Both the position numbers and the translations under genes were made by a program. The notes under the pieces were generated by a model. The model worked only from the letters and a program-made list of their open reading frames with translations, did no database searches and was not told the origin of the DNA. A DNA stretch of 48,406 bases from contig JAAERL010000074.1 in NCBI GenBank assembly GCA_024230435.1, positions 1-48,406 on the forward strand, given 5' to 3'. Positions 1,551-37,076 of the stretch are shown piece after piece (positions within the stretch are counted from its first letter, which is position 1; the number at the start of each line of letters is the position of its first letter). The stretch comes from Desulfobacteraceae bacterium. GTDB taxonomy: Bacteria; Desulfobacterota; Desulfobacteria; Desulfobacterales; Desulfosarcinaceae.

Positions 1551-2591
1551 ATGTCATGGGATTGGGAAAAGTTAAATCAACAACATCAACACCAAAAAGG
1601 CTCACCCCCGCCTCAGATGGATGAATTGTTTAAGCAGTTCAAAAATCTGAAACTACCAGGCGGCCCTATTATTATTGGCATAATAGGCTTGATTGTCATT
1701 TTAGGATATTCCTCTTTCTTCACCATAGATACGGGTGCAGTGGGAGTTGTGCAACGATTCGGCAAATATGTTCGTATTGCAGAGCCAGGCCCCAATTTTA
1801 AGGCGCCTTTAGGTATTGAAACGGTCACAAAAGTGCCACTTGAAAAAATTGAAAGAGAAGAATTTTATATTAGCGTGGCCTCATCCTCGCCAAGATTCGG
1901 CGCAAATTCTGAAAGAGATTCGGAAACCTCGTCTCTTATGCTGACAGGTGATCTTAATGTTGCAGTTGTGCCCTGGATTGTACAATACCGGGTCAAAGAT
2001 CCAAAAAACTTCTTGTTTAAAGTAAAAAATGTTCACAATTTGCTCCGTGATTTATCCGAGACCAGCATGAGCCTGGTTGTGGGCGATCACAGCATCAATG
2101 AAGTGCTTACAAAACGCAGCGGAATTGCCAATGAAGCCGAAAAGGTTTTGCAAATAGAACTGGATAATGCCAGCACCGGGCTTCTGGTTGTGAATGTCGA
2201 ATTGAAAAAAACCAATGTTCCCACACCTGTTCAGAGTTCATTCAATGAAGTGAACCAGGCTATCCAGGACAAGGAAAAAATGATTTATAAGGCCAGGGAA
2301 GACTATAATAAAGAGATTCCCCGAGCCAAGGGCGAAGCCGAGCGTACCATTAAAACTGCTGAAGGTTATGCCCTGGACAGGGTAAACCGGGCCAAAGGCA
2401 ACACTGCAAGGTTCGATTCACTGTATTCGGAATACATAAAGGCCAAAGATGTGACCAAAAGGAGGCTTTACCTGGAATCAATCAAAGAACTCCTGCCCAA
2501 ATTGGGATCGATTTTCATTATCGACGATAGCCAAAAAAATCTGCTGCCTTTCTTGAACCTTAAAACCCTGACCGAAGGTAACGAAAAATGA
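1551..2591 (+). CDS. hflK: HflK, SPFH-family modulator of FtsH
   Basis: Membrane-anchored SPFH/prohibitin protein that with HflC forms a cage around the FtsH protease at the inner membrane. The 346-residue sequence starts with a short Gln/His/Pro-rich cytoplasmic segment, then one transmembrane helix (about residues 38-58), then an SPFH domain beginning VGVVQRFGKY. A long Ala/Lys/Glu helical region follows (RAKGEAERTIKTAEGYA, about 258-275). The start ATG follows AAGGAAAAAGAG. Its stop overlaps the hflC start by 4 nt (ATGA), so the pair is translationally coupled as in other bacteria. Confidence 0.93.
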   Translation: MSWDWEKLNQQHQHQKGSPPPQMDELFKQFKNLKLPGGPIIIGIIGLIVILGYSSFFTIDTGAVGVVQRFGKYVRIAEPGPNFKAPLGIETVTKVPLEKIEREEFYISVASSSPRFGANSERDSETSSLMLTGDLNVAVVPWIVQYRVKDPKNFLFKVKNVHNLLRDLSETSMSLVVGDHSINEVLTKRSGIANEAEKVLQIELDNASTGLLVVNVELKKTNVPTPVQSSFNEVNQAIQDKEKMIYKAREDYNKEIPRAKGEAERTIKTAEGYALDRVNRAKGNTARFDSLYSEYIKAKDVTKRRLYLESIKELLPKLGSIFIIDDSQKNLLPFLNLKTLTEGNEK

Positions 2592-3559
2592 ATATCAAAG
2601 TAATTTTTGCGATACTGATTCTTATTATCGTGGTGGGTTCACTTATGTGCGCCTACACTGTTGATGAAACCGAACAGGTTTTAGTTACCCGTTTCAATAA
2701 AATTAACCGGGTAGTCGCAGAACCCGGTTTACATTTTAAATTGCCAGTGATTGAAAAAAAAATCTCTTATCTGAAAAACCTGCAGGAATGGGATGGCGAC
2801 CCGGGCCAAATCCCCACAAAAGAAAAACGTTACATATCGGTAGACAGTTTTGCCCGCTGGCGGATAACCAGTCCCGTTCTGTTTTTTAAAACCATAGGAC
2901 CTGTTCAAGATAACGCCAGGTACCGCCTGGATGAAATTATTGATCCAGCTGTGCGGGACTTGATCACCTCAAACAGGCTTATTGACGCTGTACGCAACAG
3001 CAACAGAAAACTCGATACTTTTGAGTCGGATCTTGCACAGGCAAAGGTTGAGACTAAAAAGGACCAACTGTCCACTTACACTGTAACTACCGGCCGTAGT
3101 GAGATTAACTTAAGAATATTGGCAGAGGCAAAGCCCAAGTTAAAAAAATTCGGTATTGAACTTGTGGATGTTAAAATAAAGCGCATCAATTACGTAAGGG
3201 ATGTGCGGGATTCGGTTTACGGGCGAATGATCCAGGAGCGCAAACAAATTGCTGAAAAATACCGTTCCGAGGGGCAGGGCGAATCTCGAAAAATTCTCGG
3301 CGATAAAGAATTGGAGTTGAAAAGAATTCAATCCCGGGCTTATCGAAAAGCTCAGGAAATCAAAGGTAAGGCTGATGCTGAAGCCACCCGCCTATACGCG
3401 GAAACGTTCGGTAAAGATCCGGGATTTTATTCGTTTACAAAATCGTTGGAAATTTACAATGAAGCATTCAATAAATCCAGCACACTTGTTCTGTCCACGG
3501 ATTCGGAGCTTCTTAAATATCTCAAGGGCGGAGGCTTGAGTGCCAAACCCCGCAAGTAA
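2588..3559 (+). CDS. hflC: HflC, SPFH-family modulator of FtsH
   Basis: Partner of HflK in the FtsH-regulating membrane complex. The 323-residue protein has an N-terminal transmembrane anchor (about residues 3-22), an SPFH domain (EQVLVTRFNK onward), and a charged coiled-coil region with the HflC-typical stretches RMIQERKQIAEKYRSEG and KADAEATRLYAE. Length is close to the family norm (about 300-335). Its start overlaps hflK by 4 nt. A strong hairpin terminator follows at 3713-3752, ending the hflKC unit before the oppositely oriented bS22-like gene. Confidence 0.93.
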   Translation: MNIKVIFAILILIIVVGSLMCAYTVDETEQVLVTRFNKINRVVAEPGLHFKLPVIEKKISYLKNLQEWDGDPGQIPTKEKRYISVDSFARWRITSPVLFFKTIGPVQDNARYRLDEIIDPAVRDLITSNRLIDAVRNSNRKLDTFESDLAQAKVETKKDQLSTYTVTTGRSEINLRILAEAKPKLKKFGIELVDVKIKRINYVRDVRDSVYGRMIQERKQIAEKYRSEGQGESRKILGDKELELKRIQSRAYRKAQEIKGKADAEATRLYAETFGKDPGFYSFTKSLEIYNEAFNKSSTLVLSTDSELLKYLKGGGLSAKPRK

Positions 3560-3712
3560 AAAAGGCTGATAAAAGGACACAAGGCTTTGGGGCGCAAAGT
3601 TGGCGATGCTGGATGCGCCATACCCGGATATGCTTTTAGGGTCTTGCCTTTTACAATAAACGATGTGGTTATTGGGCATTGGCCTGTAATCAGCCATACC
3701 CTTTGGGGCAAT

Positions 3713-3752
3713 AAAAAAGCACCATTTTTTTAATCTAAAATGGTGCTTTTTT
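3713..3752. terminator. Bidirectional intrinsic terminator
   Basis: A perfect 16-bp stem: AAAAAAGCACCATTTT (3713-3728) pairs with AAAATGGTGCTTTTTT (3737-3752) around an 8-nt loop. There is a T run on both strands. It lies between convergent hflC (plus) and the bS22-like gene (minus) and can end both transcripts. Confidence 0.92.
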
Positions 3753-3785
3753 AATTTCGGCATTTGAAGAAAATCGCAACAATCA

Positions 3786-3884
3786 TTATTTGCCCTTTCT
3801 ACGCTGATGCCGCGTGCGAGCTAACAACTTGCGATGCTTATGTTTTCTCATTTTTTTCCTTCGCTTCTTAACAACACTACCCAA
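3786..3884 (-). CDS. bS22-like / AURKAIP1-COX24 domain micro-protein (32 aa)
   Basis: A very small gene that conventional gene callers would easily miss. It starts with TTG and encodes 32 residues beginning MGSVVKKRRKKMRKHKHRK and ending with RRKGK. About half the residues are Lys or Arg. The pattern GSV-x-KKRRK-x-M-x-K-x-KHRKLL-x-RTR-x-QRRK is that of the AURKAIP1/COX24 family, known from mitochondrial small-subunit protein mS38 and the mycobacterial 30S protein called bS22. The likely role is therefore a 30S-bound protein near the decoding region. The start is fixed by an exceptional Shine-Dalgarno with a 7-nt spacer and by the family N terminus. It converges with hflC across a terminator. 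Confidence 0.85.
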   Translation of the reverse strand: MGSVVKKRRKKMRKHKHRKLLARTRHQRRKGK

Positions 3885-3885
3885 T

Positions 3886-3899
3886 GGATCACCTCCTTT
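3886..3899 (-). promoter_or_regulatory. Exceptionally long Shine-Dalgarno of the bS22-like gene
   Basis: On the minus strand this reads AAAGGAGGTGATCC, a 14-nt perfect complement of the usual 16S rRNA 3' tail (GGATCACCTCCTTT). The AGGAGG core ends 7 nt before the TTG start. Read on the plus strand it imitates the end of a 16S gene, but no rRNA is present. Confidence 0.85.
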
Positions 3900-3927
3900 C
3901 TTGTATTAGCGATAAATAAACGCGGTT

Positions 3928-3957
3928 AATATATCATCACAACAGCGGCCTTGTCCA
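3928..3957 (-). promoter_or_regulatory. Candidate promoter for the bS22-like gene
   Basis: On the minus strand, TGGACA (3957-3952) is followed after 18 nt by TATATT (3933-3928). The start codon lies about 35 nt further on, just past the Shine-Dalgarno. Sequence match only. Confidence 0.4.
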
Positions 3958-4062
3958 CTAATTTTATGGTGTATTTTCGAAGGGCCTGGCTGTGGCCGTA
4001 AAACTGCGGCCTGATAACACACCATTGTTATTCTAAAGCATGTATGTTATTTGGCGTTCATC

Positions 4063-4608
4063 ATGAGCTTTTTAGCAACCAAGAGATTTACGCTGAACGA
4101 TATTCAAATGGTCAATAGGGCTGTTCTAATTGCTGAAGAGTTAGTCAGCAATTTTTTTAAAATGTCTGCGAATCAATGGTTGCGGCCGAAATACGATGTC
4201 AAAACCCTTGTGCAATTGGGCCAAAATGAAATCGTGGAAGGCCCTTTTGCACAAATCATTCGTTATGAGGGAAAACGCACGGGATCATCGCTTGGATCAG
4301 ATTCTTACGATTTCTATAAAATCTGCCTTCAGGACCACACAATAATAAAAACCCTTGAATCCAATCCGCTTTTATCCCTTTTTCCCATATGTTTGTATAT
4401 CATCACCCATGAACTGGTTCATATCGTACGATTTAGCAAGTTTCTCCAGATATTTGACGCCTCTGCTGCTGAAAAGCTTGCCGAAGAAAAACGCGTACAC
4501 ACGATAACCAATAACATTCTGACCCCCGTAAGGCAGAACGGCCTTAATATAGTGCTGGATTATTTCAAACAATGGCGTTTGCCAATTGAAGATTTAGAAA
4601 ATCAATAA
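4063..4608 (+). CDS. Orphan HExxH putative zinc metallopeptidase
   Basis: I do not recognise a named family. The 181-residue soluble protein carries HELVH at residues 116-120, a zinc-protease-type HExxH, within a hydrophobic helix (LYIITHELVHIV). A pair of glutamates follows about 25 residues later (EEKRVH, 141-146), a plausible gluzincin-like third ligand. No signal peptide or transmembrane anchor is evident. The ATG at 4063 is preferred over the in-frame TTG at 4051; neither has a clear Shine-Dalgarno. It lies between the bS22-like gene and fmdB in a proteostasis neighbourhood (hflKC, groESL). Proteolytic activity is inferred from the motif only. Confidence 0.55.
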   Translation: MSFLATKRFTLNDIQMVNRAVLIAEELVSNFFKMSANQWLRPKYDVKTLVQLGQNEIVEGPFAQIIRYEGKRTGSSLGSDSYDFYKICLQDHTIIKTLESNPLLSLFPICLYIITHELVHIVRFSKFLQIFDASAAEKLAEEKRVHTITNNILTPVRQNGLNIVLDYFKQWRLPIEDLENQ

Positions 4609-36869: not shown

Positions 36870-37076
36870 TTGAAGGAGATTACAGTTAGGGTACAAGATA
36901 ACGACTTGGAAAAAGCCATGAGAATTCTGAAAAAAAAGATTCAAAACGATGGCCTTTTCAAGCGTTTGAAGCTTAAAAAAAGCTATGAAAAACCAAGTGA
37001 GTACCGCCGCCGCAAGCAACGTGAAGCTTTACGCCGGCAAAGAATTGCTGCAGCACGCAGAAACCGGTACAAATAA
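36870..37076 (+). CDS. rpsU: Ribosomal protein bS21
   Basis: A 68-residue basic 30S protein involved in initiation. It starts at TTG 36870, giving MKEITVRVQDNDLEKAMR, the normal S21 N terminus. The frame continues upstream to an ATG-like start at 36828, but those 14 residues are not S21-like and AAGGGGG lies at good distance before the TTG. The C terminus is Arg/Lys-rich (RRRKQREALRRQR). It is monocistronic, with its own promoter and a strong terminator. Confidence 0.95.
   Translation: MKEITVRVQDNDLEKAMRILKKKIQNDGLFKRLKLKKSYEKPSEYRRRKQREALRRQRIAAARRNRYK

Follow-up and report, generated by a model that had tools for sequence, protein, structure and literature searches.

The window, by which the whole 48,406-nt stretch of DNA from a sulfate-reducer-like bacterium is meant, carries on its minus strand a gene for the ribosomal protein bS22 that begins with UUG directly behind an extended Shine-Dalgarno (SD) sequence. 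The leader of this gene can pair with the 3' tail of the 16S rRNA. This pairing potential is conserved across the order, is coupled to a non-AUG start codon and is rare at other genes. The arrangement suggests that the ribosome itself controls the amount of bS22. The preferred reading is a monocistronic bS22 gene whose start would depend on pairing with the 16S tail and which would be under translational autoregulation of the bS21 type, with a probability of about 0.45.

The bS22 gene and its surroundings

The open reading frame (ORF) at 3786..3884 (-) encodes bS22. It has 32 amino acids plus a stop codon, starts at TTG and gives the product MGSVVKKRRKKMRKHKHRKLLARTRHQRRKGK. The frame scores 62.3 bits against the NCBIfam equivalog NF047430 (ribo_bS22, cut-off 34) and 38.3 bits against Pfam PF08213 (COX24_C, cut-off 23). 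The PDB sequences closest to the predicted peptide are bacterial bS22 chains, the nearest being mycobacterial and Cutibacterium bS22, followed by mitochondrial mS38. The bS22/COX24-like identity proposed in an earlier note on this DNA is therefore borne out, both by scores over the curated cut-offs and by the solved chains. bS22 is a known family (NF047430; PF08213; mS38/AURKAIP1 in mitochondria), and the peptide shares its length, its basic composition and its MGSV-KKRRKKM-KHKHRKLL pattern.

The UUG at 3882..3884 (-) is the sole start codon before codon 12 in a short open frame, and the N-terminus that it gives agrees with the solved bS22 chains. The TTG start that the note had read for the 32-aa frame also stands, as a non-AUG codon occupies the same position in 57/58 genomes of the same order. 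This gene differs from other bS22 genes in having UUG with an extended SD, whereas elsewhere in the phylum bS22 mostly has AUG with an ordinary SD. The accessible text of PMC10618245 reports a GUG start for Borrelia bS22. A search of open-access journal papers for bS22 with Shine-Dalgarno or autoregulation gave no report of this leader.

The bS22 gene stands alone. A gene read as hflC from its sequence (2588-3559, +) converges on it, and the two are separated by an inverted repeat at 3712..3753 that is perfect over 17 nt and has A and T runs. The repeat is a probable two-way terminator for hflC and bS22; a scan for consensus terminators gave 0 sites at 3712..3753. A motif scan gave a promoter candidate, TGGACA-18-TATATT with TG before the second hexamer, at 3928..3957 (-). 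The motif is weak alone, because 1 site was found and 1.2 are expected in shuffles. TGGACA is present upstream of bS22 in 45/58 same-order genomes, usually at a distance of 61-79 nt from the start codon, and the candidate is probably the bS22 promoter. Its position would therefore give a short bS22 leader of roughly 35-40 nt. No match was found when bS22 was looked for in plasmids and phages.

Pairing of the leader with the 16S tail

No recognisable 16S gene was found in the genome's own assembly, and the reference tail is that of relatives. The 16S 3' end was recovered in 4 of the 39 genomes searched, all four from the same order. All four ends terminate in GCGGCTGGATCACCTCCTTTCTAAGG and all read GGCTGGATCACCTCCTTTCTAAGG. 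The 17-nt stretch AGAAAGGAGGTGATCCA at 3885..3901 (-), directly before the TTG, is complementary to this end, and the pairing of the window leader runs through UUUCU to the end of the sequence that the relatives share. The earlier note had claimed an SD complementary to the whole 16S tail over 14 nt, the 14-mer AAAGGAGGTGATCC at 3886-3899 (-). This claim is confirmed and extended, since the complementarity of the window leader to the tail of the four relatives is 17 nt and not 14. In E. coli numbering, the partner of the 14-mer is 1529-1542, presumably all of the unpaired tail down to the point where helix 45 (h45) begins at its foot. Comparison of the leaders gives a conserved core, GGAGGTGATC at 3887..3896 (-), which pairs with G1530-C1539 in the same numbering.

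The 14-mer occurs once in the 6.13-Mb assembly. In 60 genomes the exact 14-mer is found at 15 places (4 16S ends, the window and 10 elsewhere), and the reversed 14-mer has 0 matches. Four of the 10 other places (L032, L034, L035 and L037) precede plausible gene starts, and none of these is common to more than one genome in that list. The full 14-nt match is not conserved in homologues, which the note had offered as a check; among the 60 genomes searched, the exact 14-mer stands at bS22 only in its own genome. A chance match or a remnant of a 16S gene was considered and rejected, as the identity stops after 17 nt on both sides and the core is kept at the same place in relatives. Chance is excluded because the pairing of the bS22 leader is conserved.

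The bS22 frame is present in 53/60 close genomes and in 40/40 of those with a completeness of 90% or more and a contamination of 5% or less, so the poor conservation that was named as an argument against the gene is not observed. In an even draw across the phylum bS22 is found in 68/247 genomes, and the gene is therefore patchy outside the order. Two sets of leaders were compared. The same-order set (n=58) comprises all 53 close genomes, the window's own included, and 5 from the even draw, while the rest-of-phylum set comprises 58 other genomes from the draw of 247. Helix lengths with the 16S tail count G-U pairs.

The two sets differ in both start codon and helix. The same-order genes start with TTG in 55 cases, CTG in 2 and ATG in 1, whereas the rest of the phylum has 55 ATG, 2 TTG and 1 CTG. 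Helices of at least 10 bp are found in 52/58 same-order genomes versus 3/58 in the rest of the phylum. An unbroken A1531-C1539 helix is present in 49/58 versus 1/58 (Fisher p 6e-22, kinship uncorrected), and the same-order helix is unbroken from G1530 in 43/58. The sole rest-of-phylum genome with the unbroken helix, L173, also has a CTG start. The one same-order gene with ATG, in L240, is without the extended helix. An AUG-started bS22 with an unbroken helix occurs in 0/67 rows, drawn from three partly overlapping sets. By family, the start is non-AUG in 33/34, the helix reaches at least 9 bp in 32/34 and it is unbroken in 28/34. Most of the coupling of the helix to a non-AUG start may represent one ancestral event.

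A second, independent set of bS22 genes was collected with a coding-sequence pattern that is blind to the leader. It holds 80 loci among 117 matching stretches; L054 and L115 end at a contig edge and are not counted. Judged by identical leaders, this set comes partly from the same genomes as the same-order set. Loci of Desulfosarcina and of further Desulfobacterales-type records have the same leaders as genomes from the window's family, which makes Desulfobacterales the probable order. Among the matches listed, rows with Desulfobacterota or deltaproteobacteria titles have 58 TTG, 2 GTG and 1 ATG (61 rows, the window being one). The few Nitrospirota and Chloroflexota rows among the matches listed have ATG in most Nitrospirota and in all Anaerolineae-type rows. 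Dehalococcoidia bS22 among the matches listed has 5 TTG and 1 GTG without an extended SD; therefore, a weak start codon can occur without a long SD there.

Several single loci deserve mention. L117, from the same class and among the matches listed, has a bS22 gene that starts with ATG behind an ordinary SD (AGGAGG followed by AAATTTTA). An independent loss of both features together is possible in this case. In L171 (G257), outside the order, the bS22 peptide is identical to the order's common form, but the gene has ATG and no SD, and there is a second partial copy; transfer or contamination is possible. Three Chloroflexota loci among the matches listed (L058, L087 and L097) have 11-13 nt of AGAAAGGAGGT(GA) upstream of ATG at a longer distance. 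Their bS22-like frames give a peptide start of MPSD, and the real start is uncertain.

The control set consists of 664 ORFs of at least 120 codons from the same loci, each scored at its best candidate start. A helix of at least 10 bp is found for 74/80 distinct bS22 leaders versus 9/664 control ORFs, and a helix reaching 12 bp for 44/80 versus 0/664. Within these loci, bS22 is a pairing outlier relative to the 664 ORFs. The start of rpsJ is found in 29/30 loci and is ATG in all of them, with helices of 3-7. The 69 ORFs downstream of rpsJ have helices of 3-8.

Proposed autoregulation and competing readings

According to the accessible text of PMC10618245, the pocket that bS22 occupies in other species is made up of the 16S helices h2, h27, h44 and h45. 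Its location on the 30S subunit is also given in the available part of PMC6582356, where an effect on the part of the mRNA channel immediately upstream of the anti-SD is proposed. The proposed mechanism starts from a weak UUG behind an SD that would pair along the tail as far as h45, or to one or two bases short of it. bS22 in its pocket would restrain the base of the tail and tighten the decoding centre. In a 30S subunit without bS22, the base of the tail would be freer and the decoding centre more permissive, which would lead to full pairing and better acceptance of UUG. The bS22 mRNA would then be translated mainly by 30S subunits that still need bS22. Such a preference of bS22-free subunits for the bS22 mRNA would amount to autoregulation of the kind shown for Flavobacterium bS21. 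Where the helix is unbroken from A1531 or G1530, just two or three bases separate it from the start codon. Entry of the codon into the P site may require that the helix open first, and bS22 could influence that step.

In Flavobacterium johnsoniae, ribosomes without bS21 preferentially translate rpsU via an SD of 9-13 bp, as described in the part of PMC9976891 that was accessible. In both systems one small 30S protein gene has a standout pairing, and in both, from the same partial text, the product lies near the 16S tail. Here the protein is bS22, the start is UUG and the best conserved pairing lies towards h45. An SD of at least 9 bp, as seen for bS21, precedes bS22 in 56/58 same-order genomes. 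The regulation was demonstrated in F. johnsoniae (PMC9976891, accessible text), whereas here it is inferred from sequence.

Other observations count against autoregulation. In F. johnsoniae, as far as the accessible text goes, SDs are hardly used elsewhere, but the present genomes, unlike those of Bacteroidia, use SDs at other genes. The sampled loci, 0.83 Mb in all, contain 199 other ORFs (80 aa or longer) with GGRGG at SD distance. In favour of specificity, the match continues into TGATC by 4 nt or more in only 8 of the 199, 6 of which are in loci fetched for the motif. The helix is broken before A1531 in 9/58 same-order genomes, and L174 has just 6 bp. The bS22 SD has a mean unpaired probability of 0.45 and is not predicted to be specially open. 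The core motif also stands before a start-like codon elsewhere in 30/31 genomes. G001 has up to 54 such places, mostly one repeated string; GGAGGTGATCCGGGTG recurs many times in this genome (26 + 29 listed matches, about 54 places) and is probably a repeat family rather than a set of SDs. The window's own genome has the core before a start-like codon at 4 places, of which 2 are credible gene starts, namely bS22 and L339, an ATG ORF of 102 aa.

If the autoregulation is real, control of composition by ribosomes lacking one protein is not peculiar to bS21 in SD-poor Bacteroidia, and the same design also arose for bS22 in SD-using bacteria. bS22 would also acquire a function open to testing, acting at the base of the 16S tail and on the choice of start codon. 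For its role, the accessible parts of PMC6582356 and PMC10085706 contain only proposals. Even without regulation, a non-AUG start (33/34 families) and a near-full-tail SD (28/34) make a strong rule for finding bS22, which is often unannotated.

The strongest rival to autoregulation is a constitutive strong start site, which is a serious possibility but somewhat unlikely. A 32-aa protein required at ribosome stoichiometry from a single-gene mRNA would call for the strongest SD, with the UUG either tolerated or setting the output, and with no feedback. Such an arrangement is ordinary ribosomal economics, and rpsU has strong SDs (8-12 bp) inside and outside the order. In Staphylococcus aureus, extended SDs are common and 7-9% of starts are UUG, without gene-specific control in the part of PMC13009471 that was available. 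Both cases exceed the usual SD pairing and UUG starts are frequent in S. aureus; the helix there grows at the 3' tip of the tail (A1543, U1544) in ~30% of expressed genes, again by the available text of PMC13009471. Unlike that helix, the one described here belongs chiefly to one gene and is conserved on the side facing h45. A constitutive site is also at odds with bS22 in the other families of the phylum, which manages with AUG and ordinary SDs, and with rpsJ, which is also ribosomal and has neither feature. AUG is one mutation away from UUG, yet it is back in 1/58 genomes (L240), where the extended helix is lost. A constitutive strong start accounts for the SD, but not for the absence of AUG in 57/58 genomes.

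The constraint on the core of the leader counts in favour of autoregulation, and its position bears on the remaining readings. GGRGGTG is present in 55/58 same-order leaders and GGRGGTGATC is exact in 35/58; GGRGG lies 7 nt from the start codon in 56/58. The mean entropy of the core (-12 to -3) is 0.42 bit versus 1.19 at the third codon positions of the same gene. It is 1.39 bit at -16 to -13 and 1.79 bit at -40 to -20; entropy, pairing and change counts are uncorrected for kinship. Two core positions opposite U have G in 24/58 and 4/58 genomes and A in all others. Since the changes at these positions are only A to G (24/24, 4/4), the pair is kept as G-U. The TGA positions pair in 98-100% of leaders (A at -5 in 100%) and the T and C at -4 and -3 in 86% each. 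The leader bases opposite the 3' tip of the tail (GAAA) pair in 61-91% per position with G-U allowed, and 'TT' or 'AT' often interrupts this half among the matches listed. The conserved half is therefore the one next to h45. This pattern of conserved pairing points to the base of the tail rather than its tip.

A sensor of 16S 3'-end maturation is very unlikely on these grounds. Complete or unprocessed tails would pair best in such a case, and the subunits carrying them would translate bS22 preferentially. The pairing of the window leader through UUUCU is consistent with this idea, as is the enrichment for pairing bases opposite UUUC (61-91% per position). However, the tip-pairing half is less conserved than the core (1.39 versus 0.42 bit) and is often interrupted, and sensing of the 3' end is the poorer fit, since pairing is best conserved on the side of h45. 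The suggestion in the earlier note that expression could depend on the state of the 16S 3' end is weakened by the same comparison of GAAA (61-91%) with TGA (98-100%). Least likely of all is that the conserved bases serve to bind something else, either bS22 or another regulator, with the mRNA acting as an rRNA mimic or hairpin: many ribosomal proteins do repress by binding their own mRNA, but the conservation coincides with the 16S-tail complement in a fixed register, the core stays paired through its changes opposite U, the rest of the leader outside the SD has changed to saturation (median pairwise identity of the upstream leader 0.29), and an Rfam scan of 3400-4300 gave nothing over gathering scores, only sub-threshold matches centred on the terminator hairpin.

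The start of rpsU

The same window contains rpsU (bS21) at 36882-37043 (+), with TTG at 36870. Same-order rpsU genes start with TTG in 25 cases and GTG in 1 (n=26), and their helices of 8-10 bp lie nearer the tip of the tail. L218 has an alternative ATG six bases upstream, and in several other same-order rpsU genes a poorly pairing ATG or GTG lies in frame farther upstream. In the phylum outside this order, rpsU has 25 ATG, 1 GTG and 1 TTG with helices of 8-12 bp (27 usable loci of 30; the count leaves out L356 and L358). The helices are strong inside and outside the order, and a strong SD at rpsU is not special to it. From the counts in and outside the order, the start codons of both rpsU and bS22 set this order apart.

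A wider reading is put forward tentatively. bS22 may be a second ribosomal protein that controls itself, through a helix with nearly the entire tail that is read at the foot of h45 together with a non-AUG start. As bS21 and bS22 share the UUG, the 30S subunit might check two late or peripheral proteins via its own initiation machinery. The bS22 (3786-3884) and rpsU (36882-37043) genes share one contig and are separated by about 33 kb. Their spacing is about 24-32 kb on one contig in G002, G004, G030 and G039.
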